Of a DNA stretch of 64,000 nt, positions 13,187 through 30,992 are shown in pieces. Under the pieces are notes generated by a model. That model worked only from the letters and a program-made list of their open reading frames with translations, did not search any database and was not told where the DNA came from. Position 1 is the first letter of the stretch, and each line of letters opens with the position of its first letter. Source of the stretch: Acidobacteria bacterium RIFCSPLOWO2_12_FULL_68_19 (GTDB lineage: Bacteria > Acidobacteriota > Vicinamibacteria > Vicinamibacterales > UBA2999); contig MELF01000033.1 of the NCBI GenBank assembly GCA_001767525.1, positions 15,641 to 79,640 of the forward strand, given 5' to 3'. The position numbers and the translations under genes were made by a program.

Positions 13187-14599
13187 TTACTCGGGCAACT
13201 GCTGAAGGTCTGTGATCCCAGCGACGTTCGCCGCATCAACGGCGGCCGCAGGGACGATGGCTCGCGGCGGATACGCCGCCGGCGGCAGCGGCTTGGTGGC
13301 GTCGATCACGGTCGCGGTGATCATTCGCGGCGTGCGCGTGCCGTCGGGGTGATAGTCCCACCCGACGGGCAGCAGTCCGCCCGGCCCTGACCAGCGCGGG
13401 ATCACCAGCAGATCGCGGGCGGCGTCGAAGCGCGTGCCGATCGCCCACATCACGTCGCCGTCGTTGAACACGTTGATGTCGTCGTCGACGACGACGATCA
13501 TCTTGAGGTTCTCGGGCTCGGTGTTGAGGGCGGCGAAGGCGGCCTTCTTCACCTCGGCGTCGCGCGTCTTGGCGATCGCGAGATAGCAGTGCATCCGGCT
13601 GTGCGCCGGCACGTTGACCGCCGCCAGCCCCGGGACGACCTGCTTGACGTTGCGGTAGATGCTCCCCATCCGCGGGAGGCTCCCGAGCACCAGGTGCTCG
13701 CGGTTGGCCGAGAAGACGTCGTAGTAGATCGGCTTCCGCCGCATCGTGATCGTCTTCACGCGAATGACCGGCTTCGGCCCGTCCGCCGTGTAATGCCCCG
13801 GCCACTCGCCAAACGGCCCCTCGTGCCGCCGCTCGTGCGGGATGACTTCCCCTTCGATGACGATCTCGGCGCGCCCGGGCACCGGCACGTCGCACGTCTC
13901 GGCGCGCGTCAGCTCGACAGCCTCCCCGAGCAGGCCGCCGGCGGCGTCGAACTCGCCGCCGATGCCGGGCAGGCGGGACACCGCGCCCATGACCACCGCC
14001 GGGTGATGGCCGATGGCAATCGCGATCGGCGCGGGCTGCCCGCGCTCCTCGTAGCGCCGGTAGATGTAGGAGCCGTGATGCCCGTCGATGAACCAGACGC
14101 CCAGCTCGTTGCGGCCGTACACCTGGTGCCGGTACAGGCCCGCGTTCACCTGCCCCGACTCGGGATCGCGCATGATGCCGATGCCGCTCGTGATGTACGG
14201 GCCGCCGTCCAGCTCGTTGTGCGTCAGGAGCGGCAGCTTCCCGAGATCGACACCGTCGCCGCTCCACACCTGCTCCTTGACCGGTGCGGACTCGCGCGGC
14301 ACCTCGCGCGCCGGCACCGGCCGCGTCATCCGCTCCCCGAACACCGGCACCAGCTCCCGGAGCGTCGTTTCGAGCGCGACGGCGAGGCGGTCGTAGGTCG
14401 CCGTCAGGTTGAGCACGAGCGGAATGGAGCTCGCGCCGACCTTCTCGAAATAGAGCGCCGGGTACTGGTTATCGCGGGCGAAGCGCTCGGCGATGGCGGT
14501 GGCGCCGAACCGCGGATCGACCGCCGTCGTGACGCGCTTCACCTCGCCCGGACGGGCGGCGATGAGGTCGCGGAGGAACGAACGAAGGTCCTTCGGCAT
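13187..14599 (-). CDS. UbiD-family (de)carboxylase
   Basis: I place the start at ATG 14599 (MPKDLRSFLRDL), two bases after the stop of the upstream [2Fe-2S] gene; the long extension in this frame is the shadow of that gene. The 470-residue enzyme has the UbiD layout: the N-terminal prFMN-binding domain ('YITSGIGIMRDPESGQVNAGLYRHQV'), the diagnostic 'HEGPFGEWPGHYT', and the C-terminal domain with 'MIVVVDDDINVFNDGDVMWAIGTRFDAARDLLVI'. UbiD enzymes use prenylated FMN to (de)carboxylate aromatic or unsaturated acids. No ubiX is visible in the window, so the cofactor must be supplied from elsewhere. It is the last gene of a tightly coupled operon. Confidence 0.92.
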   Translation of the reverse strand: MPKDLRSFLRDLIAARPGEVKRVTTAVDPRFGATAIAERFARDNQYPALYFEKVGASSIPLVLNLTATYDRLAVALETTLRELVPVFGERMTRPVPAREVPRESAPVKEQVWSGDGVDLGKLPLLTHNELDGGPYITSGIGIMRDPESGQVNAGLYRHQVYGRNELGVWFIDGHHGSYIYRRYEERGQPAPIAIAIGHHPAVVMGAVSRLPGIGGEFDAAGGLLGEAVELTRAETCDVPVPGRAEIVIEGEVIPHERRHEGPFGEWPGHYTADGPKPVIRVKTITMRRKPIYYDVFSANREHLVLGSLPRMGSIYRNVKQVVPGLAAVNVPAHSRMHCYLAIAKTRDAEVKKAAFAALNTEPENLKMIVVVDDDINVFNDGDVMWAIGTRFDAARDLLVIPRWSGPGGLLPVGWDYHPDGTRTPRMITATVIDATKPLPPAAYPPRAIVPAAAVDAANVAGITDLQQLPE

Positions 14600-14601
14600 G
14601 C

Positions 14602-14955
14602 TCAGGCCAGCTTCTCCTCGGCCGGCATCGTGTCGGTCACCAGATCGCGGATGACCGTCCGCTTCGGGAGCGGCGCCACCCTCGCCCCGGCGGCGGACAG
14701 CCGCGCCGTGCACATGTACTCGACGCGGCCGTCGACGAGCGCCATGCACGTGTGGCAGGCGTTGGCGTTGATGCAACTGTAGCGAATGGCCAGGCTCGAG
14801 TCGGCATGCGTGCGGATCCAGCGCAACGCGTCGAGCACCGACATCCCCTCTTCGAACGGCACCTCGTAGGTCTGGAACCGTCCCTCGTCCGGGCCGGTGC
14901 CGCGCCACACCGTCAGGGCAGCCACGCCGTGGGCGCCGGCCACGCGGTTGCTCAC
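14602..14955 (-). CDS. Short [2Fe-2S] protein, SdhB/FrdB N-terminal domain only
   Basis: The 117-residue protein matches the ferredoxin half of succinate dehydrogenase/fumarate reductase iron-sulfur subunits: 'YEVPFEEGMSVLDALRWIRTHADSSLAIRYSC' followed by a CX5CX2C cluster loop (C-INANA-C-HT-C) and a fourth Cys in 'VEYMCTARL'. It stops where the C-terminal [4Fe-4S]/[3Fe-4S] domain should begin, so it carries a single [2Fe-2S] cluster. Its GTG start overlaps the flavoprotein stop (GTGA) and its own stop is two bases before ubiD. It probably delivers electrons to, or takes them from, the adjacent flavoprotein. Confidence 0.85.
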   Translation of the reverse strand: MSNRVAGAHGVAALTVWRGTGPDEGRFQTYEVPFEEGMSVLDALRWIRTHADSSLAIRYSCINANACHTCMALVDGRVEYMCTARLSAAGARVAPLPKRTVIRDLVTDTMPAEEKLA

Positions 14956-16712
14956 GCCGAACGGACCCCCGACCGTACGACCGGCGTCCAGCGGCTCGTC
15001 AGCGCGTCGCCGGAGAGCGACAGGCGCTGATTCTTCTCGAAGGTCGGCGACGGCTGCGGCGCGTCGAGGCGCTGGTGGGCGCCGCGGCTCTCGGTGCGGT
15101 TCGTCGCCGAGACGACCACCGCCTCCGCGCTCCGGAGCATCGCCTTCAGCTCGTACCAGTCCTGCAGGTCGAGGTTGAAGACGTCACCCTCGGCCAGCGC
15201 GAGGTCCGGAAGACCGCGGCGGAACCGGTGAATCGCGTCGAGCGCGCGCGCCAGCCCCTCCCCCGTCCGGAACGGCCCCGCGCGCTCCCACATCACGTCC
15301 TGCAGCTCGGTCTGGACGACGCCCGGCGCCGGACCCTCCCCCGTTCGCGCGCGGAGCCCCGCGAGTTCCGCCCGCGCCCGTTCCGCGTACGCCGGCAGCC
15401 AGCCTGGATCCGCTCCGCCGGCGGCCTCCGCGGCGACGTGTCCCGCCCGTTCGCCGAAGACGAGCGCCTCGCTGATGGCGTTGCCCGACAGGCGATTGGC
15501 GCCGCCGGGGCCGCCCACCGCCTCGCCCGCCGCGAACAGCCCGGCCACGCGCGTCTCGAGCCGCTCGTCCACCGCAACGCCCCCCATGTGATAGTGCGCC
15601 GTCGGCGCCACCTCCACCGGCATGCGCGTCAGATCGATGCCGTTTCTGAGCAGCCGGTCGATCACCGGACCGAATGCCTGCCGGAGACGGTCCTCGGGAA
15701 TGTGGCGGAAATCGAGGTAGGCGCCGCCGTGCGGAGAACCGCGCCCCGCCTCCGCCTCCTTGAGAATCGCGTAGGAGGCGAGATCCCGCGGCGCCGTGTA
15801 GCGCCCCTCGTCTTCGCCCCCGTAGCGGTTGATGAACTCCTCGAAGCTCCCGTTCAGCAGCCGGCCGCCGAGCTTGTAGCGGAACGGGTCCCACATGATC
15901 GGGTCCATGCCGACGAGCCTCGGCGCCAGGTGGGCGATCGGAAAGAACTGCACGAACTCCATGTCGACGAGCTCGGCGCCGGCTTCGAGCGCCAGCCAGT
16001 ACGCCTCGCCGCCCATGTTGGCCGACGCGCTGTTGCGCCGGAAGATCTTGGTGAGTCCCCCGGCGGCGAGAATGACCGCCCGTGCCGCGATCGTCACGAG
16101 CGATCCGGCCGACAGATCCAGCGCCACGGCGCCGCGGGCGCGTCCGCCGGCGACGCACACCTCGATGGCGGCGACGTTGCTGAGGCGGCGGATGCGGTCC
16201 GTACTTGCCACCTGGTGCCGGAGCGTGGCCGCCACGGCGGGACCGGTGCCGAGGAAGTCGATGTAGCAGCAGCGCCTGCGGCGGTGCCCCGGCGCCGTCA
16301 CCTGCTTGATGTGGCCGTGCTCGCGCGCCCACCGGGTGCCCCAGCCGTCCATTTCGAGGATGCGCTCCGGCGCGCGCTCGCAGAGCAGCGACGAGAGCGG
16401 CTCGTGGCAGATACCGCGCCCGGCCTCGAGCGTGTCCTCGAGGTGGAGCGTCCAGTGGTCCGGCTCCTCCTGGGCGATCGCCGCCGCCACCGTCATCTGC
16501 GCCATGACCGTGGCGCCGCCGCGGCCCACGAGCCCCTTGTCGAGCAGCAGCACCGAGCGCCCGTCGCGCGCCGCAGCAATCGCGGCGTACATCCCGGCGC
16601 CCCCGGCGCCCACGACGAGCACGTCGGTCGCCTGGTGGGTGGGGGTCAGACCCCGATGATGGGGCGACTCACGGTTGCCGGTTCGCTGCATGACCTTGAC
16701 TCGCCCCATCAT
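14952..16712 (-). CDS. FAD-dependent oxidoreductase, fumarate reductase/APS reductase-like flavoprotein
   Basis: The protein (586 residues from ATG 16712, 579 from ATG 16691) carries the dinucleotide fold 'DVLVVGAGGAGMYAAIAAARDGRSVLLLDKG', the covalent-FAD-type region 'GRGGATVMAQ', the 'ILAAGGLTKIFRRN' and 'YHMGGVAVDERLETRVAGLFAAGEAVGG.GGANRLSGNAISEALVFGERAG' segments, and the C-terminal helical domain with 'DWYELKAMLRSAE'. This is the SdhA/FrdA/AprA scaffold; there is no transmembrane partner nearby, so it is likely soluble. The ATG at 16712 overlaps the creatininase stop (ATGA). The first ~20 residues are encoded by one arm of a large inverted repeat, so the native N-terminus has been replaced or extended by repeat DNA. 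Confidence 0.88.
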   Translation of the reverse strand: MMGRVKVMQRTGNRESPHHRGLTPTHQATDVLVVGAGGAGMYAAIAAARDGRSVLLLDKGLVGRGGATVMAQMTVAAAIAQEEPDHWTLHLEDTLEAGRGICHEPLSSLLCERAPERILEMDGWGTRWAREHGHIKQVTAPGHRRRRCCYIDFLGTGPAVAATLRHQVASTDRIRRLSNVAAIEVCVAGGRARGAVALDLSAGSLVTIAARAVILAAGGLTKIFRRNSASANMGGEAYWLALEAGAELVDMEFVQFFPIAHLAPRLVGMDPIMWDPFRYKLGGRLLNGSFEEFINRYGGEDEGRYTAPRDLASYAILKEAEAGRGSPHGGAYLDFRHIPEDRLRQAFGPVIDRLLRNGIDLTRMPVEVAPTAHYHMGGVAVDERLETRVAGLFAAGEAVGGPGGANRLSGNAISEALVFGERAGHVAAEAAGGADPGWLPAYAERARAELAGLRARTGEGPAPGVVQTELQDVMWERAGPFRTGEGLARALDAIHRFRRGLPDLALAEGDVFNLDLQDWYELKAMLRSAEAVVVSATNRTESRGAHQRLDAPQPSPTFEKNQRLSLSGDALTSRWTPVVRSGVRSA

Positions 16713-16740
16713 CGGGGTCTGACCCCCACCCACCAGGCGA
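16628..16740. repeat. Large perfect inverted repeat with GGGGTCAGACCCC core
   Basis: Arms 16628-16667 and 16701-16740 are perfectly complementary over 40 bases and enclose a 33-base loop. Each arm contains the palindromic GGGGGTCAGACCCC core that also makes the hairpin at 5611-5649. The structure covers the last codons of the creatininase gene and the first codons of the flavoprotein gene, and it encodes ...WVGVRPR at one end and HHRGLTPTHQ at the other. Confidence 0.93.
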
Positions 16741-17560
16741 GGAACTCGACCAGCCGCTCCACCATGTAGTCGTGGTACTGCCGGCCAGTCTCGGCCGAGG
16801 CGGCCCGGTTCGACGAGAACTGCCCCGTCGGCGCGCGCTGTTTCTGCTCGCTCGAGGTCCACGGCTGGTCGATCGTGTCGCGCCCGCCGGCGCCAAACAG
16901 ATCCCGCGTCCCGAACGGACCGACCAGCCGGTCGAAATCGCACCCAGCGTCGGAGAGCCTCTCGGTCCGGATCGTGTGCGGGAACTTGTGGAGCACGTGG
17001 GAGATCTCGAGCTCGCCCGCGTGGTGCTCGTCGGCATGCTTGAGCCGGCCGGCGATGCCGCGCGCCAGGTACACCGGATCCGCCACCGCCGTGCGCACGC
17101 CGGGCAGCTCGAACTCCCGGATGTTGCGGGCGGCGCTCGTGAGCGCCGCCAGGTTCGTCCACTTGTGGCCGTTGACGAGCAGGATCCGCCTGAACCCGTG
17201 GCGCGCGAGCGACCGGACGATGTCGGAGACAACCTGCATGAGCGTCTCGGTGCGCAGCGAGACGGTGCCGGGAAAGCCCAGATGGTGACTCGAATCGCCG
17301 TACCAGACCGGCGGCGCCGCCAGCACACCCGCCCGCCGCGCGGCGTCCTCCGCCAGCGCGATGGCCACGTAGCTGTCGAGGCCGAGCGGACCCGCGGGTC
17401 CGTGCTGCTCGGTCGTGCCGAACGGCACGAGGATCGTGTCGCGCTCGCGGAGGTAGGCCGCCACCTCCTCCCACGTCAGCTCGTGCAGCCAGACGGACGG
17501 CAGCGTGCCGGAAGCCGGGAGCCGGGAGCCGGGGTCGGATCGACGGGCGTCGTCAGTCAT
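16709..17560 (-). CDS. Creatininase-family amidohydrolase
   Basis: The 283-residue protein shows the creatininase motifs in order: 'ILVPFGTTEQHGPAGPLGLDSYVA' (metal-binding Glu and His), 'DSSHHLGFPGTVSL', 'RILLVNGHKWTNLAAL' and 'DEHHAGELEISHVL'. Family members are Zn/Mn amidohydrolases acting on cyclic amides (creatinine, formamides, mycofactocin or FAPy-type steps). Its N-terminal ~18 residues are encoded by a GCCGGGA-type tandem repeat and its last seven by the large inverted repeat, so both ends have been remodelled by repeats. Overlap (ATGA) with the flavoprotein start implies coupled translation. Confidence 0.88.
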   Translation of the reverse strand: MTDDARRSDPGSRLPASGTLPSVWLHELTWEEVAAYLRERDTILVPFGTTEQHGPAGPLGLDSYVAIALAEDAARRAGVLAAPPVWYGDSSHHLGFPGTVSLRTETLMQVVSDIVRSLARHGFRRILLVNGHKWTNLAALTSAARNIREFELPGVRTAVADPVYLARGIAGRLKHADEHHAGELEISHVLHKFPHTIRTERLSDAGCDFDRLVGPFGTRDLFGAGGRDTIDQPWTSSEQKQRAPTGQFSSNRAASAETGRQYHDYMVERLVEFLAWWVGVRPR

Positions 17561-18565: not shown

Positions 18566-18758
18566 TTCGTCCTCCGCTGTGCACCGCCCGCGGGGCACAG
18601 AGGCGCAGAGACACAGTGGAATCTGATCGCAGTGACCTCCGTGGCGCTGTGGCTCGTCGCAACGCGGCCGAAGAGTAGCGCCGCGAAGCGCCCGACGGGT
18701 CCGCCACCGGCCACCGGCTCGCGCGTCGTCTCGCCGGGCATTGCGATACGCTATACCG

Positions 18759-19637
18759 ATGCAGACCGTCGTTCAAAGCGATCGAAGCATCGTGCTCTCC
18801 GACGGCGCGCGTCTCGCCTATACGCTCCACGTCCCTCGCCCAGGCGCGCCGCCGGTGCGCAAAGGCGGACGACTCGTGCTCATTCACTCGCTCGCGCTCG
18901 ACCGCACTGTCTGGGACGAGGTCGTGGCCGCGCTCGGCGACGAGGCCGAGATCCTCACCTACGACTGCCGCGGACACGGCCGGTCGGATCGACGGGGTTC
19001 CGACCCGGCGGGGTCCCCAGCGCACACGCCTGCGCGCTGGGGTGCTTTCACCGCCGATTCGTTCGCGCGCGACCTGGCGGAACTGCTCGATTGGGTCGGC
19101 TGGCAGAAGGCCGCGATTGTCGGCTGCTCCATGGGCGGCTCGGTCGCGCTGGCGTTTGCCGGTCTCTTTCCCGCACGTACGGCCGCGCTCGGCCTCATCG
19201 ACACGACCGCCTGGTACGGGCCCGACGCCGCCGCGCAGTTCCGGCAGCGCGCCGAGGCGGCCCGGGCGAAGGGGCTGTCCGGGATGATCGACTTCCAACT
19301 GACGCGCTGGTTCTCCGACGCCTTTCGCTCCGCCCATCCCGACGTGCTCCAGCGGCTGTCGGCCGTCTATGTCGCGAACGACTTCGACTGCTACGCGAGC
19401 AGTTGCGCGCTGCTCGGCGACGCCGACCTCCGCGCCCATCTACCCGCCCTCCGCATGCCGGTCGGCATCGTGGTTGGCGAGGAGGACTACGCCACCCCCA
19501 TCGAGATGGCGCGGCAGCTCCATGCGGCCATCACGCACTCGACGCTCACCGTGCTGCCGAAGGCCCGGCATCTGACGCCGGTCGAGCGCCCCGACGCGAT
19601 TGCCGAGATGCTGCGCGGGCTGCTCGGGAAGACCTAG
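18759..19637 (+). CDS. Alpha/beta hydrolase (enol-lactone hydrolase-like)
   Basis: The 292-residue protein has the oxyanion-hole strand 'LVLIHSLALDRTVWDEV', 'ILTYDCRGHGRSD', a nucleophile elbow GCSMGG with Ser about residue 124, the acid in 'VVGEEDYATP' and the catalytic His about residue 271 in 'PKARHLTPVERPD'. This order and the RGHGxSD motif are typical of 3-oxoadipate enol-lactone hydrolases and related C-C or ester hydrolases. A ~20-residue Pro/Ser/Gly insertion after RGHGRSD is encoded by DNA containing a 9-bp inverted repeat (CCCCAGCGC...GCGCTGGGG), another apparent in-frame insertion. Start chosen at 18759; an ATG at 18741 is possible. Confidence 0.85.
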   Translation: MQTVVQSDRSIVLSDGARLAYTLHVPRPGAPPVRKGGRLVLIHSLALDRTVWDEVVAALGDEAEILTYDCRGHGRSDRRGSDPAGSPAHTPARWGAFTADSFARDLAELLDWVGWQKAAIVGCSMGGSVALAFAGLFPARTAALGLIDTTAWYGPDAAAQFRQRAEAARAKGLSGMIDFQLTRWFSDAFRSAHPDVLQRLSAVYVANDFDCYASSCALLGDADLRAHLPALRMPVGIVVGEEDYATPIEMARQLHAAITHSTLTVLPKARHLTPVERPDAIAEMLRGLLGKT

Positions 19638-19712: not shown

Positions 19713-21659
19713 ATGAGCAGGAAGCGTTCCGTGGATCGGCGGGACTTTCTGAAGGGTGCGGCGGTGACGGGCGCGGCGGCGCTCGTGCCCGATGCGGTGG
19801 CGGCCGCGGCGCCCCAGGCCCCCCCGGCGGAGGCGGCCGGCCAGGCGGCGCGCCCGGCGGCGGCAGGCGCGGTCCGCGAGGCGGACCCCCTTGTCGAGGT
19901 CAGCGAGACGACCGACCGGCCAGGCGGCGACTTCATGGTCGACGTCCTCAAGTCGCTCAACATCGAGTACGTCGCGTCGAACCCCGGCTCGAGCTTCCGG
20001 GGCATTCACGAGTCGATTATCAACTACGGCGGCAACGCGATGCCGGAGTTCCTCACCTGCTGCCATGAGGAATCGTCTGTGGCGATGGCCCACGCCTACT
20101 TCAAGGCGGAAGGCAAACCCATGGCGGTGCTTTGCCACGGCACCGTCGGCCTCCAGCACGCGGCCATGGCGATCTACAACGCCTACTGCGACCGCGTGCC
20201 GGTGTACCTGCTCGCGGGCAACTCGCTCGACGCGACAATGCGGCGGCCGGGCGTGGAATGGGCGCACAGCGTGCAGGACGCGGCCTCGATGCTGCGCGAC
20301 TTCATCAAGTGGGACGACAACCCGATCTCGCTGCCCCACTTCGCCGAATCGGCCGTACGGGCCTACAAGATCGCCATGACGCCGCCGATGATGCCGGTCC
20401 TCATCGTGCTGGACGGCGGCCTCCAGGAGGATCCGATTCCGCCGGACGTCGCCTCACGGCTCCGCGTGCCGAAGCTGACGCTGGCCGCGCCGCCGCAGGG
20501 GGACTCGGGCGCGGTGGCGGAAGCGGCACGGCTGCTCGTTGACGCGCAGAACCCGGTCGTCGTCGCCGACCGCCTCGCCCGCACGCCCGCCGGGATCACG
20601 CGCCTCGTGGAGCTGGCCGAGGCGCTCCAGGCGCCGGTCGTCGATCAGCACGGCCGCATGAACTTCCCGTCGCGCCACCCGCTGAACCAGAGCGAGAACG
20701 CCGGGCAGCTCATTGCCAACGCGGACGTCATCCTCGGACTGGAGCTGACCGACTTCTGGGGAACGGTGCACGCGTTCCGCGACGCACAGCACCGCACCTC
20801 GCGCTCCCGCATCAGGCCGGGTACGCGGCTCATCAGCATCAACGCCGTCGACCTGTTCGTGAAGAGCAACTTCCAGGACTTCCAGCGCTATCCGGAAGTC
20901 GACGTGGCGATGGCGGCCGACGCCGAGGCGACGCTGCCGGCGCTGACCGAGGCGGTCAAGCGACTCGCGACCGACGACCGCCGCCGCGCGTTCCAGGAGC
21001 GCCGCGCCCGCCTCGAGGAGGCGCACGGACGCGCCCGGCAGGCGGCGCGCAACGAGGCGGCCCATGCCTGGGAGGCGTCGCCCATCAGCACGGGCCGGCT
21101 GGCCGCGGAACTGTGGGCGCAAATCCGGAACGACGACTGGGCGCTCGTCTCCGAGAGCGGCAACACGAGCGGCTGGGCGTTCCGCCTCTGGGACTTCGAC
21201 AAGCACTACCAGCACCTGGGCGACTCGGGCGGCGCTGGCGTGGGCTACGGCGCGCCGGCCGCGGTCGGCGGGGCCCTCGCCAACAAGAAGCACGGACGCC
21301 TCTCGGTCAACATCCAGGGCGACGGCGACTTCCTCTACGCGCCGGGCGTGTGGTGGACGGCGGCGCACCACCGCATTCCGCTGCTGACGGTGATGCACAA
21401 CAACCGCGCGTATCACCAGGAAGTGATGCACATCCAGCGGATGGCGAACCGCCATCAGCGCGGCATCACCCGGGCGAACATCGGGACGACCATCGAGGAT
21501 CCGAACGTCGATTTCGCGAAGATCGCCCAGGGCATGGGGGTCCACGCCGAAGGGCCGATTACCAATCCGCGGGATCTGGCGCCGGCCTTCCAGCGCGCGC
21601 TCGCCGTCGTCAGGAAGGGCGAGCCGGCGCTCGTCGACGTGGTCACGCAGCCGCGGTAG
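19713..21659 (+). CDS. Tat-exported ThDP-dependent enzyme (acetolactate synthase/benzoylformate decarboxylase fold)
   Basis: The 648-residue protein begins with a twin-arginine signal (VDRRDFLKGAAVTGAAALV, residues 7-25) and an Ala/Pro-rich linker to about residue 60. A three-domain ThDP enzyme follows: the activating Glu in 'CCHEESSVAMAHAYFKAEGKP' (Glu119/120), a central domain ('LVDAQNPVVVADRLARTP') and the cofactor motif 'IQGDGDFLY' (GDG at 536-538) with downstream 'VMHNNRAYHQEV'. ThDP 2-oxoacid enzymes are normally cytoplasmic, so folded export is striking. The strong ribosome site GGAGGAGGCGCG precedes the ATG. A single-heme cytochrome c starts nine bases after its stop, suggesting that oxidation of the ThDP intermediate is coupled to a periplasmic electron acceptor. 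Confidence 0.9.
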   Translation: MSRKRSVDRRDFLKGAAVTGAAALVPDAVAAAAPQAPPAEAAGQAARPAAAGAVREADPLVEVSETTDRPGGDFMVDVLKSLNIEYVASNPGSSFRGIHESIINYGGNAMPEFLTCCHEESSVAMAHAYFKAEGKPMAVLCHGTVGLQHAAMAIYNAYCDRVPVYLLAGNSLDATMRRPGVEWAHSVQDAASMLRDFIKWDDNPISLPHFAESAVRAYKIAMTPPMMPVLIVLDGGLQEDPIPPDVASRLRVPKLTLAAPPQGDSGAVAEAARLLVDAQNPVVVADRLARTPAGITRLVELAEALQAPVVDQHGRMNFPSRHPLNQSENAGQLIANADVILGLELTDFWGTVHAFRDAQHRTSRSRIRPGTRLISINAVDLFVKSNFQDFQRYPEVDVAMAADAEATLPALTEAVKRLATDDRRRAFQERRARLEEAHGRARQAARNEAAHAWEASPISTGRLAAELWAQIRNDDWALVSESGNTSGWAFRLWDFDKHYQHLGDSGGAGVGYGAPAAVGGALANKKHGRLSVNIQGDGDFLYAPGVWWTAAHHRIPLLTVMHNNRAYHQEVMHIQRMANRHQRGITRANIGTTIEDPNVDFAKIAQGMGVHAEGPITNPRDLAPAFQRALAVVRKGEPALVDVVTQPR

Positions 21660-21667
21660 GCACGATC

Positions 21668-22030
21668 ATGAAGACGATGATGGCTGCTGCCGCCGTGTTG
21701 TTCCTGGTCACCGCCGTGGCGGGCGCGCAGACGCCGGCCCCGGCGCAGCAGACCGCCCCTGCCGGCAACGCCGACAGCGGCGCGAAGGTCTGGAAGAGCG
21801 TCGGCTGCTGGCAGTGTCACGGCTACGAGGCGCAGGGGGGCGCGGCGGGACCGCGTCTGGCTGCGCGCAATCTGCCGTGGACCGGATTTTCCGCCTACGT
21901 GCGGCGGCCGGCCAACCAGATGCCGCTCTACACGGAGAAGGCGCTCCCGACGGCCGACCTCGCGCACATCTACGCGTACGTCCAGTCGCGTCCCGCGCCT
22001 CCGCAGAATATTCCGTTGCTGTTGAAATAG
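21668..22030 (+). CDS. Small single-heme cytochrome c
   Basis: The 120-residue protein starts at ATG 21668 with a signal peptide ending ...AVAGAQ. It carries one heme-c site (CWQCH) in 'KSVGCWQCHGYEAQGG' and the class I ending 'YVRRPANQMPLYTEKALPTADLAHIYAYVQS' in which Met (NQMP) would be the axial ligand. It is co-directional with the Tat-exported ThDP enzyme and nine bases away, so it is the likely electron acceptor for that enzyme in the periplasm. Confidence 0.92.
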   Translation: MKTMMAAAAVLFLVTAVAGAQTPAPAQQTAPAGNADSGAKVWKSVGCWQCHGYEAQGGAAGPRLAARNLPWTGFSAYVRRPANQMPLYTEKALPTADLAHIYAYVQSRPAPPQNIPLLLK

Positions 22031-22093: not shown

Positions 22094-22501
22094 TCAGAGT
22101 AGCAGGCGGAGGCGGCGACCCCCGGGCAATCGGTACACGGCGAAACCGGCGCGATCGACGGTGAAGACCGTGTGGAGGCCCTCTCTGGCCGCAGCGTGGA
22201 CGAGAGCCGCATCGGCGAGATCCATTGGACGATCGGCGTACTTCTTCATGAGCGCTCGAATGCCGTGAATGTCCGCCGCCTCCAGCGCCAGCAGCCGCAC
22301 GGGCGCCTCTTCGAGCACATCCCACAACCTGTCCTGAGCGCCGAACGACCCGACCAGGTGCATCGCCTCGGCAATCACCGGCCAGACCGTGAACAGCGGC
22401 TCGCGGATCTTCTCGAGCGCCCGAACGCAGGAATCGTGGAAGGCGTCGCCGGCGTCGAGAATGGCGACGAGCGGCCCGGTGTCAACGAGCACGCCGCGCA
22501 C
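22094..22501 (-). CDS. vapC: PIN-domain toxin, VapC-like
   Basis: The 135-residue PIN protein has the acidic residues in order: 'VLVDTGPLVAILDAGDAFHD' (Asp7), 'VWPVIAEAMHLVG' (Glu), 'DLADAALVHAA' (Asp pair) and 'VFTVDRAGFAVYR' (Asp). VapC toxins are Mg-dependent RNases that cleave tRNA or rRNA. It begins with GTG 22501 inside the remnant of an antitoxin frame (22482-22661), with which it overlaps. No complete antitoxin gene is nearby, so the toxin is either inactive, weak or silenced, or is restrained by an antitoxin from another locus. Confidence 0.87.
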   Translation of the reverse strand: MRGVLVDTGPLVAILDAGDAFHDSCVRALEKIREPLFTVWPVIAEAMHLVGSFGAQDRLWDVLEEAPVRLLALEAADIHGIRALMKKYADRPMDLADAALVHAAAREGLHTVFTVDRAGFAVYRLPGGRRLRLLL

Positions 22502-23174: not shown

Positions 23175-24077
23175 CTACAGATGAATGGTCTCGACCTGAC
23201 GGCCGCGCGCGCGGTCGAGCGCGGCGGCGAAGGCGCGGCGGAACAGCACGCCGGCCAGATGTCGCTTGTACTCGACCGACCCGCGCGTGTCGGCAAAGGG
23301 CTGCGCCGCCTCGCGCACGAGTTCGGCGGCCCGGTCCACACGATCGGCCGACGGCGCCGCCTCCCGCACGACGTCCTCGGCGGCGCGCGCGCGGATCGGC
23401 GTCGGACCGAGCGCGCCCAGGCTCACCGCCACACTCCGGCAACGGTCGCCCTCGAGGTCGATCTGCACCCCGACGCTGGCAACCGCGAAATCACCGGCGC
23501 GCTTCTCGAACTTCACGTAGGCGCCGCCGCTCGGCTTCGCGGGGATGCCGATCGACACACCGACGACCATCTCCGCTGCGTCGAGACGCGTGGAGTACGC
23601 ATCGACGATGAACTCGTGGAGCGGCATCGTCCGCCTGCCGCCCAGACCGGCGATGCGCACCACCGCGTCGAGCGCCATCAGGGCCGCGGGCCAGTCGCCG
23701 GCCGGGTCGGCGTGCGCAAGACTCCCGGCCACGGTCCCGCGATGGCGCACCTGCACGTCGGCGGTCTGCCGTGCCGCGTCGGTCATGATCGGCAGGAGAT
23801 CCCGGACGAGCGGCGACTCGACCATGTCGGCGTGCCGGCAGAGCGCGCCAATCTCGAGCCGGTCGCCCTCGCGCCGCAGGAGGTCCAAGCCGGCAATCCG
23901 ATTCACGTCGACCAGGCAGCGCGGCCCTGCGATGCGCAGCTTCATCATCGGCAGCAGACTCTGGCCGCCGGCGAGGATCTTCGCTTCGTCGCCGTAGCGC
24001 CCGAGCAGCTCGAGCGCCTCGTCGACGGTGCGCGGCGCGAAGTATTCAAACGCTGCGGGATACACTCGGTACTCCAC
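23175..24077 (-). CDS. coxM: MoCo hydroxylase FAD subunit (CoxM-like), second operon
   Basis: From GTG 24077 (VEYRVYPAAFEYFAPRTVDEALELL) the protein is 300 residues. It has the FAD motifs 'ILAGGQSLLPMMKLRI' and 'QVRHRGTVAGSLAHADPAGDWPAAL' and the flavoprotein C-domain ending 'DTRGSVEYKRHLAGVLFRRAF'. An upstream in-frame extension to 24188 translates repeat DNA (residues rich in Gln, Arg, Pro, Gly) and is unlikely to be native. The gene is separated from coxL by a fossil amidohydrolase gene on the other strand, so an insertion has split the usual L-M pair. Confidence 0.9.
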   Translation of the reverse strand: MEYRVYPAAFEYFAPRTVDEALELLGRYGDEAKILAGGQSLLPMMKLRIAGPRCLVDVNRIAGLDLLRREGDRLEIGALCRHADMVESPLVRDLLPIMTDAARQTADVQVRHRGTVAGSLAHADPAGDWPAALMALDAVVRIAGLGGRRTMPLHEFIVDAYSTRLDAAEMVVGVSIGIPAKPSGGAYVKFEKRAGDFAVASVGVQIDLEGDRCRSVAVSLGALGPTPIRARAAEDVVREAAPSADRVDRAAELVREAAQPFADTRGSVEYKRHLAGVLFRRAFAAALDRARGRQVETIHL

Positions 24078-24087
24078 TGCCACGAAT

Positions 24088-24167
24088 GTCCAACGCCCAA
24101 CTCCACAACGCCCAACGGTTGGGAGTTGCCGTCCTGGACGTTGGAGCCTTGGGAGTTGGGAGTTGTT
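24088..24167. repeat. Degenerate (TTGGGAG/CCAACGC)n inverted repeat
   Basis: One half reads CCAACGCCCAACTCC with CAACGCCCAACGG, the other TTGGGAGTTG and TTGGGAGTTGGGAG, so two sets of seven-base units face each other and can fold. It lies between the coxM start and the amidohydrolase remnant. The same unit family (GGGCGTT)n occurs at 37578-37638. Confidence 0.8.
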
Positions 24168-24168
24168 C

Positions 24169-24465
24169 GTGACAATCGACGTCTTCAATCACATCGTGAC
24201 GCCGCGCTACCGCGACGCCCGGCTCCGGGTCGCGCCGCGCCTCGCCGCGCAGGAGCGCGTCGTGCCGGCGCTCCGCTGCGGCCTCGAGTTCTTCGGCGTC
24301 GACCGGGTGATGTTCGCCACCGACATGCCGTTCGACACCCGGGGCGGGCGCACGTTGGTCGAGGTGGCGCTCCAGGCGATGCAGGCGCTCGACGCCCCCG
24401 CCGGCGACAAGGCGCAGATCTTCGAAGGCAACGCGCGCCGGGTGTTCAGGCTCGCGCACGGATGA
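24169..24465 (+). pseudogene. Internally deleted amidohydrolase (COG2159-like) remnant
   Basis: A GTG at 24169 opens a 98-residue frame. It begins like a full amidohydrolase (TIDVFNHIVTPRYRDAR) and ends with the true C-terminal part (LEFFGVDRVMFATDMPFDTRGGRTLVEVALQAM...IFEGNARRVFRL). The ~200-residue middle with the metal-binding His residues is missing without a frameshift, so the product cannot be catalytic. Full-length relatives are about 300-350 residues (ACMSD/decarboxylase-type amidohydrolases). Its last 20 bases overlap the convergent end of coxL. Confidence 0.8.
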
Positions 24466-26863
24466 GCTCCCAGACGCGCTCGGGCGAGAGCGGCAGCTCC
24501 CGCACTTCGACGCCGAACGGCGCCAGCGCGTCCTCGACGGCGCTGGCAATCGCCGCGGGCGACGGGATGGCCGCGCCCTCTCCGGCCGCCTTCTGTCCCA
24601 GTGTGGTGAACGGATCCGGCACCGGGCAGTGCTCCACCTCGATCCTCGGCGTCTCGAGCGTCGTCGACTTGCCGTAGTCGAGCAGCGTCAGCGTCAGCAG
24701 CTGGCCGTCGGCGCCATAGACGAATCCCTCGCCCAGCGCCACCGAAATACCGTGCGCCGCCGACCCGTAGATCTGGCCATCGACGACCGCCGGATTGATG
24801 AGCGTCCCGTTGTCGCTGACGATGACGTAGCGGACGACGCGGACGCGTCCCGTCTCCACGTCGACCTCGACGACTGCGGCGTGCGCGGCGGACGAGAACG
24901 TGTACTGGGCCCGCACGCGCCCCTGCATGTCCGGGAGCATCAGCGGATCGGCATGCGGATGGCTGTGGTAGTAGGTCGCCTGCAGGCCAGGCTCGAAGCC
25001 CGGCGGCAGCAACGCCTGGTTCGTGTAGGCGATCTTCCCCAGTTCGGCGAAGGTGACGCTCTCGACGGGTCCACGAGGACCCGTCCCACGAGGGATGACG
25101 ACACCGTCTTCGATCCGCAGCAACGACGGATCGGCCCGCAGGACGGAGGCGGCGAGCGTGAGGACCTTGTCGCGCAGCCGTGTCGCCGCACCGTGGACCG
25201 CGCCGACGTCGTAGAGGTGAAAATTGTTGCCGCTGTTCGAGGACGAGATGCCCCACGGCGAGGACACCGAATCGAACGTGCCGGCCGCCGACACCCGCTC
25301 GAGCGCGACGCCGAGCACGTCGGCCACGATCTGCGCGGCCGTCGTCTCGTGCGATTGACCGCAGCTCGGCGACCCCAGCGTGAAGACGACCGAGCCGTTC
25401 TTCTCGATCTTGACCGTCGCGCCCTCCACGCCGCCTGAGCCCGGCATCTGCGCCGACTGCGGGAAGATCGCCATGTCGCGCGCGGCGTTCCGCCCCCCGG
25501 GCTCGACGCCGATGACAACGCCGATGCCAAGGAGCGTCGAACCGCCCCGCCGTTCCGCCTGCCGGCGCCGCACCTCCGCGTACTCGACGTTCACCAGCAC
25601 CCTGTCGAGCAGCGCCTCGTAGTCGCCGCTGCCGTGAATATTGCCGTTGGGCGTGGTGTAGGGGAACTGCTCCTTCCGGACGAGATTGCTGCGCCGCACC
25701 TCGATCGCATCGAGTCCGAGCTCCCGCGCGACGAGGTCCATCGTGCGCTCCCACACGAAGCACATGCCGGGCTTGCCGATTCCGCGGTTGGGCACCACCG
25801 GGCATTTGTTCGTGAGCACCGAGCGGCCGTCGAGCCGGAGGTGCTGCACCTTGTAGGTGTTGAACAGGTTGTTCAGCTTGTTGGTGAAGTGGATCGTCAG
25901 CGTGCTCACCGACCCGCCCACGTCGTCGGTGTCGCGAATCTTGAGCCCGAGCACTTCTCCCTCTGCCGTGACGGCCGCCTCGACGTCGAACTCCTGCTCG
26001 CACGAGTGCCCGCCGGCCGTCATGTGCTCGCTCCGGTCCTCGATCCACTTGACGGGGCGGCCGGCCTCCACCGCCAGGAGCGCCGTCAGCACGGCGTACT
26101 TGCGAATGAGGTGGATCTTCTGCCCGAACCCGCCGCCGACGTCGGGCACGATCACCCGCACGGCGTCGATCCCGAGCGCCTCCGAGAGCGCTTCGTAGAT
26201 CACATCGGGAGACTGGGAGTTGCACCAGATCGTCAGCCGCTCCGGGGCGGCCTCCGCCAGACACGCGAACGGCTCGAGCGGCGTGGAGCTGTAGCGGTGC
26301 ATCGTCAGATGCTGCCGGACGATCCGGTCCGCTCGCGCGAACGCCGCGTCGGGGTCGCCGTAGGCGACGTGCCCCTCCCAGGCGACGTTGCCGCCGAGTT
26401 CCTCGTACAGCACCGGCGCCGACGGCAGTGCCGCCTCTTCGGTCGAGACAACGGATGGAAGCGGATCGTATTCGACGTCGATCAGCTCGAGCGCGTCTTC
26501 CGCTCCCGCGCGCGTCTCGGCGGCGACGATCGCGACGGGCTCGCCGACGTACCGGACCTTGTCGATCGCCCCGGCGTATTCCGGAATGGGCACGCGCAGG
26601 CCGGCGGCGTAGCGCCCGGGCTTGAACGGCCGGGACAGTCGCTTCACCGCCTCCGGCGTGACGACCGCCTTCACGCCCGGGAGCGCCTCGGCTCGTCTGC
26701 CGTCGACCGCCACGATGCGCGCGTGCGCGTAGGGACTGCGCAGGATGCAGGCGTGCAGCATGCGCGGGAGCGCCAGGTCGTCGACGTACCGGCCCCGCCC
26801 CGTGACGTACCGCGGCGCTTCCTTGCTTCGGGCGCTCCGGCCTATGTACTTCCGCGATTCCAT
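24446..26863 (-). CDS. coxL: MoCo hydroxylase catalytic subunit (CoxL-like), second operon
   Basis: From ATG 26863 (MESRKYIGRSARSKEAPRYV) the protein is 805 residues. It has the hammerhead domain ('YVTGRGRYVDDLALPRMLHACILRSPYAHARI'), the cofactor loop 'VGGGFGQKIHL' and the catalytic-Glu segment 'GQKAAGEGAAIPSPAAI'. The active-site loop reads PNRGIGKPG, closest to form II/aldehyde-oxidase types and unlike the CO dehydrogenase AYxCSFR motif. An organic substrate (aromatic, aldehyde or heterocycle) is therefore expected. It overlaps coxS by 22 bases. The long N-terminal extension of this frame is the shadow of coxS. Confidence 0.92.
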   Translation of the reverse strand: MESRKYIGRSARSKEAPRYVTGRGRYVDDLALPRMLHACILRSPYAHARIVAVDGRRAEALPGVKAVVTPEAVKRLSRPFKPGRYAAGLRVPIPEYAGAIDKVRYVGEPVAIVAAETRAGAEDALELIDVEYDPLPSVVSTEEAALPSAPVLYEELGGNVAWEGHVAYGDPDAAFARADRIVRQHLTMHRYSSTPLEPFACLAEAAPERLTIWCNSQSPDVIYEALSEALGIDAVRVIVPDVGGGFGQKIHLIRKYAVLTALLAVEAGRPVKWIEDRSEHMTAGGHSCEQEFDVEAAVTAEGEVLGLKIRDTDDVGGSVSTLTIHFTNKLNNLFNTYKVQHLRLDGRSVLTNKCPVVPNRGIGKPGMCFVWERTMDLVARELGLDAIEVRRSNLVRKEQFPYTTPNGNIHGSGDYEALLDRVLVNVEYAEVRRRQAERRGGSTLLGIGVVIGVEPGGRNAARDMAIFPQSAQMPGSGGVEGATVKIEKNGSVVFTLGSPSCGQSHETTAAQIVADVLGVALERVSAAGTFDSVSSPWGISSSNSGNNFHLYDVGAVHGAATRLRDKVLTLAASVLRADPSLLRIEDGVVIPRGTGPRGPVESVTFAELGKIAYTNQALLPPGFEPGLQATYYHSHPHADPLMLPDMQGRVRAQYTFSSAAHAAVVEVDVETGRVRVVRYVIVSDNGTLINPAVVDGQIYGSAAHGISVALGEGFVYGADGQLLTLTLLDYGKSTTLETPRIEVEHCPVPDPFTTLGQKAAGEGAAIPSPAAIASAVEDALAPFGVEVRELPLSPERVWELIRARA

Positions 26864-27330
26864 GACTTCAGCCGCGAGGCCGCGTCCTTGACTGCCTCGA
26901 TAATCTGTACGTATCCCGTGCACATGCAGAGGTTGCTCGAGAGCTCCTCTCGAATCTGCTCTTCCGTCGGGTCGGGAGTGCGGGCGAGCAGCGCGTGCAC
27001 CGCCATCACGAAGCCGGGCGTGCAGAAGCCGCACTGGAGCGCGAAGCCGTCTACCAGTGCCTGCTGGACGGGATGCAGGGCGCCCCGGGTGCTCAGCCCC
27101 TCGACGGTCGTCACCTCGCACCCGTCCGCCTGCACGGCCAGCATCAGGCACGCCTTCACGAGCGCGCCGTTGACGAGCACCGAGCAGGCGCCGCATTCCC
27201 CCACGACGCAGCCGACGTGCGTCCCGGTCAATCCGATCTGCTCCCGGAGGAAGTGGACGAGCAGCGTTCGAGCCTCGACCTCGCGTTCGTACGTCTCTCC
27301 GTTCACCGTGAGGCGGATCGAATGCGTCAT
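26842..27330 (-). CDS. coxS: MoCo hydroxylase [2Fe-2S] subunit (CoxS-like), second operon
   Basis: The 162-residue protein starts at ATG 27330, overlapping the TctAB stop (ATGA). It has 'GCVVGECGACSVLVNG' for the plant-type cluster, 'CGFCTPGFVMAVHALL' and 'SNLCMCTGYVQII' for the second cluster. It precedes coxL in the more usual S-L order. Overlap at both ends implies translational coupling from the transporter gene into the hydroxylase. Confidence 0.93.
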   Translation of the reverse strand: MTHSIRLTVNGETYEREVEARTLLVHFLREQIGLTGTHVGCVVGECGACSVLVNGALVKACLMLAVQADGCEVTTVEGLSTRGALHPVQQALVDGFALQCGFCTPGFVMAVHALLARTPDPTEEQIREELSSNLCMCTGYVQIIEAVKDAASRLKSWNRGST

Positions 27331-29354
27331 GACACGAACAGCACGCCCGGCGGCAGCGGCACACGCAGCGCGCGGTCGAACAATCCGTAGATGAACAGCC
27401 ACGACGCGAGCGCGTAGGTGCCGGCGAGCACCACCGACTGCCGCGCGACCGCCAGCAGGTACGCCAACGCGAAGAGCGGCACCGCCACGAGCGCCCCAGC
27501 CAGCCACAGCAGCAGGAAGAACGCCGCCATCCACGCCAGGGCCGACACCCACTCTGCGCGTGAGGCGGTGGCGAACACGTCAGGGAGATCGTTCTCGTCG
27601 GCGGGTCCGTTCGGCATTTCCTCGACGGGTCCGGCCGGCCCCTCCTTCGCGTCGCCCCGCGCTCCTCGACTCGGGCCCGGGGCGCCCCGAGGAAGGCCGG
27701 CGGGCGAACCCCGTCCGGCGAGCGACTGGAGGAGCCGGGCAGCCGCGAACGCCAGCAGCAGAACGCCCGTGGTCACGGGAAACACCGCGGTCCGGAACGG
27801 CCAGCCGGCGGCCTGGTACAGCACCCACGCGGCCGCCAGCAGGAAGCCGGCCGCGATCGGCACGTCGGCGCCGTGCGCGGGCAGGGCCTGGGCGCCGGGC
27901 CGCCCACGCAGGAGCGGCCACACCAGCCCGGCCGCGATCACCACCGCGAACGCCAACACGAGCGGTCGCGTCATCCAGCGCCACTCGTAGAGCGAGTACG
28001 AGAGGAAGAGATAGCGCTCCGCAATGTCCCCCAGCACGAGCGCCAGCAGGAGCGGCGCGCGCGGCCAGTCCCACCGGACCGCCGCAACGCCCAGGACGGT
28101 CGCGCCGAGCATCAGCAGGATGTCGGCGAAGCTGTTGTGCGCCGTGTACGCGCCGAACGCGGTCAACACCATCAGAAACGGCACGAGGAGCACCGCCCGC
28201 ACGTAGGTCAGCCGGACGAGCTGATTGAGGAACAGGAACGACACCGCCACCGCGATGACGTTCGACAAGACGATGATCCAGACCATCGCGTAGGTCACGT
28301 CCAGGTGCGTGGTCAGCATCGCCGGCCCCGGCACGAGCCCCTTCAGCAGGAACACGCTCAGCAGGATCGCCATGGAAATGCTGCCTGGAATGCCGAACGC
28401 CACGGTGGGGATGAGGTTGCCGCCCTCGCGCGAATTGTTCACCGCGCCGGTCGCGATCACCCCCTCGACGTTGCCGCGCCCGAACGTCTCCGGGTGGCGC
28501 GACGAGTGCTGCGCGTGCGCGTAGGCGATGAACTGCGACACGGCGCCGCCCATCCCGGGAATCACGCCGATGCCAAGACCGATCGCGCTCGCGCGGAGCG
28601 TCAGCCACCGGTGCTCGAGTGTGTCGCGCACGCCCTGGAAGACGCGCGACAGCCGCTCGTCGCCGCGCCTGGAGGCGATGCTCTGCTTGGTCATCATGAG
28701 CTGCAGCACCTCGGCGCCGCCGAAGAGCCCCACGACGACCGGCACGACGTTGATCCCGTCCCAGAGATAGAGCTGGCCGAAGGTGAAGCGCTGAATGCTG
28801 CTCTGCGGATCGAGACCGACCATCGCCAGCAGGAATCCGAACGCCGCCATGATGAAGCCCTTGACGAGGTTCCGCCCGGAGAGCGACACGATGAAGCTCA
28901 AGCCGAGCACCGTCAGCATCAGGAACTCCGGCGGCCCGAGCTGCAGCACGACGGGCCGAACGACCGGCACCGAGATCGCCAGCACCGCCGCGCCGACGAG
29001 CGCGCCGATGAGCGAGCTGAAGAGCACGGCGCCCAGCGCGCGGCCTCCTTCGCCGCGCCGCGTCATCGGATAGCCGTCGAGGACGGTGGCGGCCGAGGTC
29101 GCCTCGCCGGGAATCCCGAAGAGCACCGACGTGATGTCGCCCGTCGTCGCGGTCACCGCGTGCATGCCGAGGAGGAACGCAAACGCCGAGATCGCGTCCA
29201 TCGGATAGACGAACGGCAGCATCATCGCGAGCGTGGCGGCGCCGCCGAGCCCGGGAAGGATGCCGACCAGCAGGCCGACGGCGATCCCCACCAGCATGAC
29301 GGCGAAGGTCTGCGGCGCCAGCACCTGCAGGAGGGCGGAGAAAAAGACGTCCAC
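27327..29354 (-). CDS. tctA: Tripartite tricarboxylate transporter permease, TctA-TctB fusion
   Basis: The 675-residue membrane protein combines TctA (about residues 1-500) with a TctB-like four-helix domain (about 555-675). The TctA signatures 'GILPGLGGAATLAMMLPFVYPMDAISAFAFLLGMHAVT', 'TSVLFGIPGEATSAATVLDGYPM' and 'GVIPGMGGAVSQFIAYAHA' are present, as is 'WPFRTAVFPVTTGVLLL' of TctB. The two modules are joined by a Gly/Pro/Arg-rich linker (near 27640-27705) that looks like another in-frame palindromic element. TTT systems take up citrate, tartrate or aromatic carboxylates using a TctC-type receptor, which heads this operon. Confidence 0.88.
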   Translation of the reverse strand: MDVFFSALLQVLAPQTFAVMLVGIAVGLLVGILPGLGGAATLAMMLPFVYPMDAISAFAFLLGMHAVTATTGDITSVLFGIPGEATSAATVLDGYPMTRRGEGGRALGAVLFSSLIGALVGAAVLAISVPVVRPVVLQLGPPEFLMLTVLGLSFIVSLSGRNLVKGFIMAAFGFLLAMVGLDPQSSIQRFTFGQLYLWDGINVVPVVVGLFGGAEVLQLMMTKQSIASRRGDERLSRVFQGVRDTLEHRWLTLRASAIGLGIGVIPGMGGAVSQFIAYAHAQHSSRHPETFGRGNVEGVIATGAVNNSREGGNLIPTVAFGIPGSISMAILLSVFLLKGLVPGPAMLTTHLDVTYAMVWIIVLSNVIAVAVSFLFLNQLVRLTYVRAVLLVPFLMVLTAFGAYTAHNSFADILLMLGATVLGVAAVRWDWPRAPLLLALVLGDIAERYLFLSYSLYEWRWMTRPLVLAFAVVIAAGLVWPLLRGRPGAQALPAHGADVPIAAGFLLAAAWVLYQAAGWPFRTAVFPVTTGVLLLAFAAARLLQSLAGRGSPAGLPRGAPGPSRGARGDAKEGPAGPVEEMPNGPADENDLPDVFATASRAEWVSALAWMAAFFLLLWLAGALVAVPLFALAYLLAVARQSVVLAGTYALASWLFIYGLFDRALRVPLPPGVLFVS

Positions 29355-29366
29355 CGCCGGCGCCCG

Positions 29367-30992
29367 TCAGTCCTTCTTGTCCACGGCCGTGAGGCCGCTC
29401 CCGGGCGCGTCTTGGTCGACGGCGCCGGAGGGAATCACCGATTCGGGCAGCGGAAACCGGGGATCCGAGAACAGCTCCTTCCACTTCGCGACCGTCTCGC
29501 GCACCCGACTCGGGCTCGACTGCGCCACGCGCGGAAACGCGGCGAGCTTCTCGAACGGGCGGCACGCGTCGATCACGGCGCGGGTGTTGTACGGGGCGGC
29601 GGGGTCGGCCAGCAGCGGGTCCACCCGACTCCCCCACGACTTGCGGAGAATCTCGATGTCGTCCGACGGATCGCACCGCGTGCTGACCGCCCACATCACT
29701 TCCTCGAGATTCATCGGATCCACGTCGTCATCGACGACGACGACGAAGCGGTTCATGTAGGCGGCCGCCGGACACTGGGCCGCCAGGTACCCGGCCTGGC
29801 GGGAGTGGCCGCAGAACCGCTGCGTGATCGACACGACGACGAGCAGCCGGCCGCCGCAGGCCTCGTGCGCCCAGACGCCGCGGACGTCGCGCACGCCGAT
29901 TTTCGCCAGATCGTCCTGGATCATCGCCGACTTGAGCAGCGCGCGCATGTAGGAGTAGTCGTTCGGCGGCTTGCCTGGCGGCGTGCCGAGGATGATCGGA
30001 TCGGTCCTGAAATACAGGCGCTCGATGTCCATCGTCGGCACCGGCCGCAGCGAGCCCGAGTAGTAGCCGGTCCACTCGCCGAAGGGGCCTTCCCGCAGCA
30101 CACGCTCGGGGCGAAGCCATCCTTCGACGACGATCTCCGCCGCCGCGGGCATCGGCAGGCCCGTCACCTCGCCGCGGACGACGCACAGCTGCTCGCCGAT
30201 CATCGCGCCGGCGTACGCGTACTCGCTGATCGTGTCCGGCACCTCGGTGCCGGCCACCATCAGGAGCAGGGGATCGTGGCCGAACGACGCTAGGACGGGC
30301 GCCCTGCCGTGCCTGGCGAACCAGCGGTCGTACTGCGCGCGCCCCTGCTTGCCCGCCTCGGCGTTGATCGTCGCGGACCGGCCGTCCTCCTGAATCATCA
30401 TGCGGTAGGCGCCGACGTTGATCCGGCCGGTGTCCGGATCGCTCGTCACCACCGCCACGCCGGTCCCGATATAGCGGCCGCCGTCGTGCTCGTGCCAGCG
30501 CGGCGCCGGAAAGCGCGTGAGGTCCACGTCGCGCCCGGCGACGACGTTCTCGAGAATCGGCCCGCTCGTGACGACGTGCGGCTCGTAGCGCGGCGCCGCC
30601 GCCGCCCACGCGAGCGGCCTGCCGCGGAGCGCCTGGACGAGCCCAGGCGTGTCGAGATTCGGATCGAGCCCGAGCGTCGCCGCCATACGCCGCGCGTTGC
30701 TGAGGGCGCCGGTCAGCACTCGATAGCCCCGGGGGTACCCGACGATGTCGTCGAAGAGGAGCGCGGCGGGCGGCCTGCGGCGGTAGTTGATCTCCGAGAT
30801 CGTGCCGATCTCCAGGTCCCAGTGGGCGCCGGAGACGCGCTGCAGCTCCCCCAGCTGGTCCGCCCGCGCAAGCCAGCCGCGCAGGTCGCCCATTGACTGC
30901 GCTCGGGGCGACCCCGAGGCGCTCGAAGGGTCGGCGGGGTGCCCCTCGACGTGCTCGGGGCGTCCCTGGCTCTTCTCGGAGGGGTGGGACAT
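29367..30992 (-). CDS. UbiD-family (de)carboxylase, second operon
   Basis: The product is 541 residues from ATG 30992 (TGATG overlap with tctC) or 508 from ATG 30893 (MGDLRGWLARADQLGELQRV), where family similarity begins. It has 'GGRYIGTGVAVVTSDPDTGRINVGAYRMMI', the diagnostic 'REGPFGEWTGYYSG' and 'RFVVVVDDDVDPMNLEEVMWAVSTRCDPSDD'. The substrate is unknown, but the operon with a TTT transporter and a MoCo hydroxylase suggests aromatic or heteroaromatic acids. The first 33 residues (containing GRPEHVEGHPAD) are encoded by a palindromic repeat element, so the coupled start has been built from inserted DNA. Confidence 0.92.
   Translation of the reverse strand: MSHPSEKSQGRPEHVEGHPADPSSASGSPRAQSMGDLRGWLARADQLGELQRVSGAHWDLEIGTISEINYRRRPPAALLFDDIVGYPRGYRVLTGALSNARRMAATLGLDPNLDTPGLVQALRGRPLAWAAAAPRYEPHVVTSGPILENVVAGRDVDLTRFPAPRWHEHDGGRYIGTGVAVVTSDPDTGRINVGAYRMMIQEDGRSATINAEAGKQGRAQYDRWFARHGRAPVLASFGHDPLLLMVAGTEVPDTISEYAYAGAMIGEQLCVVRGEVTGLPMPAAAEIVVEGWLRPERVLREGPFGEWTGYYSGSLRPVPTMDIERLYFRTDPIILGTPPGKPPNDYSYMRALLKSAMIQDDLAKIGVRDVRGVWAHEACGGRLLVVVSITQRFCGHSRQAGYLAAQCPAAAYMNRFVVVVDDDVDPMNLEEVMWAVSTRCDPSDDIEILRKSWGSRVDPLLADPAAPYNTRAVIDACRPFEKLAAFPRVAQSSPSRVRETVAKWKELFSDPRFPLPESVIPSGAVDQDAPGSGLTAVDKKD
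30903..30972. repeat. Pair of inverted PE(R/H)VEG-type palindromic elements in a coding region
   Basis: CTCGGGGCGACCCCGAGG plus CGCTCGAAGGG on one side faces GTGCCCCTCGACGTGCTCGGGG on the other. Read as protein the second unit gives GRPEHVEGHP. A related unit at 39175-39200 gives RPERVEGRP in a different gene. Comparable PEPVEG/LSLSKG peptides from dispersed palindromes are known in other bacterial groups; the family assignment here is by resemblance. Confidence 0.7.

Follow-up and report, generated by a model that had tools for sequence, protein, structure and literature searches.

Pyruvate oxidase (PoxB) is a ThDP-dependent oxidoreductase that feeds the respiratory chain, and its electrons leave ThDP through FAD. 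To our knowledge, the ThDP oxidoreductases so far described rely on lipoate, FAD or iron-sulfur clusters, and the cytoplasm is taken to be where ThDP enzymes work. A different kind of system, p-cresol methylhydroxylase, is built of a flavoprotein and a small cytochrome c subunit, that is, of a periplasmic catabolic enzyme and a dedicated one-heme cytochrome. In the 2-oxoacid:ferredoxin oxidoreductases the ThDP intermediate is oxidized through a radical, and an iron-sulfur cluster is required as the electron acceptor (PMC5020499).

The locus described here lies in a 64,000 nt stretch of the genome of Acidobacteria bacterium RIFCSPLOWO2_12_FULL_68_19 (the whole of this stretch is referred to as the window), and couples the gene of a ThDP enzyme with that of a small c-type cytochrome. 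The features of the two genes are:

19713-21659, + strand: ThDP-dependent enzyme with a benzoylformate-decarboxylase (BFD) fold (Pfam TPP_enzyme N/M/C and TAT_signal; AlphaFold2)
19713-19805, + strand: Tat signal peptide, approximately residues 1-31, with RRDFLK, a hydrophobic h-region and an Ala-rich end (Pfam; R9, R10 and F12 invariant)
20067-20069, + strand: E119, the catalytic Glu of ThDP enzymes, aligned with BFD E47 (invariant, n = 74 sequences)
20136-20138, + strand: H142, aligned with the BFD catalytic His70 (invariant, n = 74)
20676-20678, + strand: H322, aligned with the BFD catalytic His281 (invariant, n = 74)
21321-21404, + strand: ThDP-Mg binding motif, D537-G538...N563-N564 (invariant, n = 74)
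21668-22030, + strand: c-type cytochrome of 120 aa with one heme and a Sec-like signal (Pfam Cytochrome_CBB3), co-conserved downstream of the enzyme
21806-21820, + strand: heme attachment motif CWQCH, residues 47-51 (C, C and H invariant in 79 partner cytochromes)
21920-21922, + strand: M85, putative axial heme ligand in a QMP motif (77 of 79 partner cytochromes)
22010-22021, + strand: C-terminal IPLL tail, conserved in partners, a candidate docking element

Pyruvate oxidase/PoxB differs from this arrangement in being cytoplasmic, in its FAD relay and quinone or O2 acceptor, and in having neither an export signal nor a partner cytochrome, while the 2-oxoacid:ferredoxin oxidoreductases are of another architecture, are likewise cytoplasmic, and use iron-sulfur clusters and CoA. 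p-Cresol methylhydroxylase is alike in organization, and the window cytochrome weakly matches its cytochrome (1dii_C, E 0.009), but its chemistry is flavin-based and its enzyme subunit is unrelated.

The enzyme gene is an intact ORF of 648 aa in which the three TPP_enzyme domains are all full, and it carries the catalytic Glu and the DG...NN metal motif of the ThDP decarboxylase superfamily. Alignment also revealed equivalents of both histidines of the BFD mechanism (His70 and His281). Since E119, H142, H322, D537-G538 and N563-N564 are invariant in 74 relatives, the enzyme should be catalytically competent. Its AlphaFold2 model (mean pLDDT 83.7) aligned with BFD at a Z of about 37 (VIA structural alignment); Foldseek matches of the model were a mixture of several ThDP enzymes, AHAS structures included, and the nearest solved structures by sequence and structural alignment were BFDs. 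A complete enzyme of acetolactate-synthase/benzoylformate-decarboxylase type had been described in the first-pass annotation, of which completeness and the BFD part stand, while the acetolactate-synthase label is less apt. Scores against the family models fell well below the cut-offs for BFD proper (NCBIfam PRK07092, 161 bits, equivalog cut-off 493), acetolactate synthase (TIGR00118, 112 bits, curated cut-off 538) and pyruvate oxidase (NCBIfam PRK08611, 95 bits, cut-off 742). The likeness to the Pseudomonas putida BFD (1bfd) covers fold, catalytic Glu, the two active-site His and the ThDP-Mg motif, and the aromatic or hydroxyacid catabolic neighborhoods are shared with BFD and with cytoplasmic ThDP relatives that lie beside an aldehyde dehydrogenase. 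The window enzyme is, however, only about 25% identical to BFD, has a Tat signal and a Pro/Ala-rich linker, is accompanied by a dedicated cytochrome c in place of the aldehyde dehydrogenase, and has clade-specific invariant residues (e.g., H568, E570, M572).

The RRDFLK sequence occupies residues 9-14, within a Pfam TAT_signal match to residues 7-26 (score 29.4 bits, cut-off 22.7; E 6.5e-7). The first-pass annotation was right in both coordinates and motif. R9, R10 and F12 are invariant in 51/51 aligned homologues, the twin-arginine motif is accompanied by a hydrophobic region, and the genome encodes TatC together with cytochrome c assembly proteins and a heme-copper oxidase.

The cytochrome has a Sec-like N-terminus, a single CWQCH, an axial Met and a match to Pfam Cytochrome_CBB3 (E 3.5e-10), which bears out its earlier description as a single-heme cytochrome c. 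It is directly downstream of the enzyme on the same strand, with 8 intervening bases (ATG at 21668) where nine had been given, a count off by one at most. Across the 79 partner cytochromes the IPLL tail is conserved to a degree comparable with much of the heme fold (I 80%, P 89%, L118 90%), and it was not found in the cytochromes inspected, from this and related genomes, that are not partners of ThDP enzymes. A structural model of the cytochrome by itself gave no further clue to docking. Partner cytochromes with two heme domains (loci L072, L078, L080, L081, L084, L088, L099, L106, L108 and L109) suggest a longer electron wire.

The first-pass annotation had asked whether the pair is conserved, and named a Tat signal absent from orthologues or a cytochrome not co-conserved as grounds for giving it up; neither was observed. 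A phylum sample of 297 genomes contained 15 homologues besides that of the window (at least about 40% identity), of which 14 carry the twin-arginine motif; a one-heme cytochrome is directly downstream in 12 of these 14, while the sole non-Tat homologue has none. The genome collection gave 463 relatives, and among the best 80 of these, a set that overlaps slightly with the phylum sample, the RR motif is found in 78, the two exceptions being one gene truncated where its contig ends and another apparently frameshifted. A same-strand CXXCH protein is directly downstream of the enzyme in 64 of the 80 loci. It is the only recurrent neighbor, forming a BLAST cluster of 57 loci against 9 for the next family (81 loci examined), and with other neighbor families in at most 9 loci, chance adjacency is ruled out. 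Enzyme stop and cytochrome start are typically about 10 nt apart (median), and the genes overlap in 15 of 77 pairs. Enzyme and cytochrome distances are correlated (r 0.72; maximum of 500 permutations 0.27), which partly reflects shared genome history. Natural ThDP-cytochrome fusions, sought as CXXCH within the enzyme ORFs of 96 loci, were not found. Two of the database records (L035 and L091) are titled Acidimicrobiia (offshore MAG) and have enzymes 65-77% identical; they are probably misbinned or misnamed.

Where the enzyme lacks an adjacent cytochrome, the same cytochrome is encoded elsewhere in the genome in 13/13 cases, and the argument from such orphans that adjacency is without function is thereby ruled out. 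The C-terminal IPLL-like tail is present in 30/30 cytochromes from these 13 genomes, and 22 of the 30 adjoin another copy of the ThDP enzyme, 20 of them on the same strand. Four loci of a clade that lacks the adjacent cytochrome (L043, L045, L048 and L061, at positions of about 1-4.2 kb) have genes for oxidase assembly (UbiA/CtaB type, SCO1 and DUF420; Pfam-checked in L045 only) just upstream of the Tat-ThDP gene.

The closest relatives that lack a Tat signal come from 16 loci, of which 15 are on proteobacterial plasmids and one is acidobacterial, and a cytochrome neighbor was found at 0/16 of them. In the same search, an NAD aldehyde dehydrogenase was nearby in 9/16 of these non-Tat loci but in only 1/82 Tat loci; 2-hydroxyacid dehydrogenase, alpha-hydroxyacid oxidase and hydroxyisobutyrate-dehydrogenase-like genes were further neighbors of the non-Tat enzymes. 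The simplest reading is that the cytoplasmic enzymes make an aldehyde for the NAD enzyme, while the exported enzymes would hand electrons to the cytochrome. Tat and non-Tat forms are the two sides of one branch of the tree, and since the Tat/cytochrome state thus changes once, the partner swap counts as one event. On this tree, Tat and cytochrome became associated once within the main family and the association has been kept since; independent support for the swap comes from the second lineage alone.

This second lineage of Tat-ThDP enzymes, 24% identical to the window enzyme, is represented in the same genome (C36; L023, 7336-9889; see also L126-L155). An (S/T/G/D)RR motif is found in 28/28 of its loci with an intact N-terminus, and 13 of the 28 have a cytochrome of a different type, often diheme, directly upstream or downstream. 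The lineage is large in Acidobacteriota (33 matches in 17 of 297 genomes), and a search for it on plasmids gave no match. That another type of cytochrome accompanies this lineage speaks for a general coupling of ThDP enzymes with cytochromes, not for a single fortunate operon. The genome's third Tat-ThDP protein (C27; L004, 1315-3165), which is PRK08327-like, was ruled out as a member of the pattern, as the Tat motif is found in 2/6 of its relatives and there is no cytochrome. Taken with the joint conservation of Tat signal and cytochrome and their joint absence from the cytoplasmic relatives, the recurrence in the second lineage strongly supports Tat-type export and a dedicated cytochrome partner. 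The first-pass interpretation is supported in this part, while the direct electron transfer that it proposed is an inference. Soil bacteria, mainly Acidobacteriota, thus keep a conserved two-gene set of a ThDP enzyme with an export signal and a dedicated small cytochrome.

The pair is embedded in a catabolic island; its genes, and the alpha/beta hydrolase gene just upstream of the enzyme, are:

13187-14908 and 29367-30992: UbiD-family decarboxylases flanking the region
16709-17560: creatininase-family protein
18741-19637, + strand: alpha/beta hydrolase (Pfam), accessory, upstream of the enzyme in 6 loci, close homologues only
23175-24188: molybdenum hydroxylase (xanthine-oxidase type), FAD subunit
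24446-27364: molybdenum hydroxylase, large subunit
27327-29354: TctA/B, tripartite tricarboxylate transporter

The closest loci combine genes for FAD monooxygenase, alpha/beta hydrolase, MFS transporter, amidohydrolase or molybdenum hydroxylase, and these neighbors, with the UbiD and Tct genes of the window, point to a role of the pair in the catabolism of aromatic or related organic acids. Immediately behind the pair, on the minus strand (22094-22501), is a small protein that by eye is PIN-toxin-like and has no Pfam match. A heme-copper oxidase subunit I (COX1) gene is located at about 60607-61974, and two more are found farther along the contig.

We consider it rather probable that the two proteins form a two-component periplasmic oxidoreductase, in which the ThDP intermediate of a 2-oxoacid (or aldehyde) is oxidized by the enzyme's own cytochrome c, the cytochrome replacing the aldehyde dehydrogenase. 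The enzyme would take up ThDP-Mg and fold in the cytoplasm and then be exported by Tat, a route that fits because ThDP-Mg must bind in the cytoplasm; the cytochrome would be exported via Sec and acquire heme after export. Once in the periplasm, the enzyme would attack a 2-oxo acid, probably of aryl-glyoxylate type or another catabolic one, or possibly an aldehyde directly. Decarboxylation would leave an enamine/carbanion on ThDP, and we infer that the docked cytochrome c oxidizes this species one electron at a time, with no release of aldehyde; hydrolysis of the acyl-ThDP would yield the carboxylic acid, and the electrons would pass from the cytochrome to a terminal oxidase. Precedent for direct ThDP-to-heme c transfer between natural partners was not found in the literature searched, and the search gave no description of an exported ThDP enzyme with a cytochrome, a weak negative given the many subscription journals outside its coverage. 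The position of the BFD active site, deep in the dimer interface, is a point against direct transfer.

The same gene pair could instead encode a periplasmic non-oxidative decarboxylase or carboligase that releases an aldehyde or acyloin, with the cytochrome serving a separate periplasmic dehydrogenase of molybdenum, PQQ or flavin type, by which this product is oxidized. BFD, matched in fold and in both catalytic His, is itself non-oxidative, xanthine-oxidase-type molybdenum subunits are encoded within the window, and PQQ-type proteins were noted by eye near 7 loci. However, the only conserved neighbor is the cytochrome, dehydrogenases do not extend beyond a few loci, and the pair travels as two genes at a spacing of 8-10 nt; we regard this alternative as unlikely. 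A pyruvate-oxidase-like flavoenzyme, in which a bound FAD would carry electrons between ThDP and the cytochrome, seems quite improbable: pyruvate oxidase and acetolactate synthase have the same fold and bind FAD, the fold matches include AHAS structures and Tat would export FAD along with the protein, but the closest structures are those of BFDs, which are not known to carry FAD, although fold by itself is not decisive on this point.

Co-transcription might also serve assembly or regulation, with the cytochrome acting as a general carrier that makes no specific contact with the enzyme. The Cytochrome_CBB3 type is indeed very common, but the C-terminal tail is shared by the partners and missing from the other cytochromes inspected, and the pair is retained in two phyla (Acidobacteriota; Alpha- and Betaproteobacteria), which makes such an arrangement very improbable. 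Beyond the two-component oxidoreductase proposed for this pair, a wider claim may be made, to which we give slightly less than an even chance: that these enzymes represent a new class of ThDP oxidoreductase that oxidizes 2-oxo acids or aldehydes in the periplasm, lets the ThDP intermediate reduce a dedicated heme c directly, without flavin, iron-sulfur cluster or lipoate, and has arisen at least twice with different cytochromes. If true, this would be a new electron route and would extend ThDP chemistry to the periplasm; the two-gene set suggests an undescribed route by which organic acids are burnt straight into the respiratory chain, and it would explain part of how Acidobacteriota, a dominant soil phylum that is poorly understood, oxidize organic acids.

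Proteobacterial plasmids carry further examples. On a plasmid of Caballeronia zhejiangensis, a Tat-ThDP enzyme beginning MTARRTFLKEA is followed 8 nt on by a diheme cytochrome, and the neighbors (Rieske dioxygenase, PdxA-type dehydrogenase and MHS transporter) are those of a catabolic plasmid; this copy, with the accessions WP_244808613 and WP_244808614, puts the pair in a cultured, testable host. On a Novosphingobium plasmid, a Tat-ThDP enzyme is paired with a tailed one-heme cytochrome, and behind the pair lies another cytochrome (L110, 9072-9431), which by eye is class I-like and possibly the next carrier.
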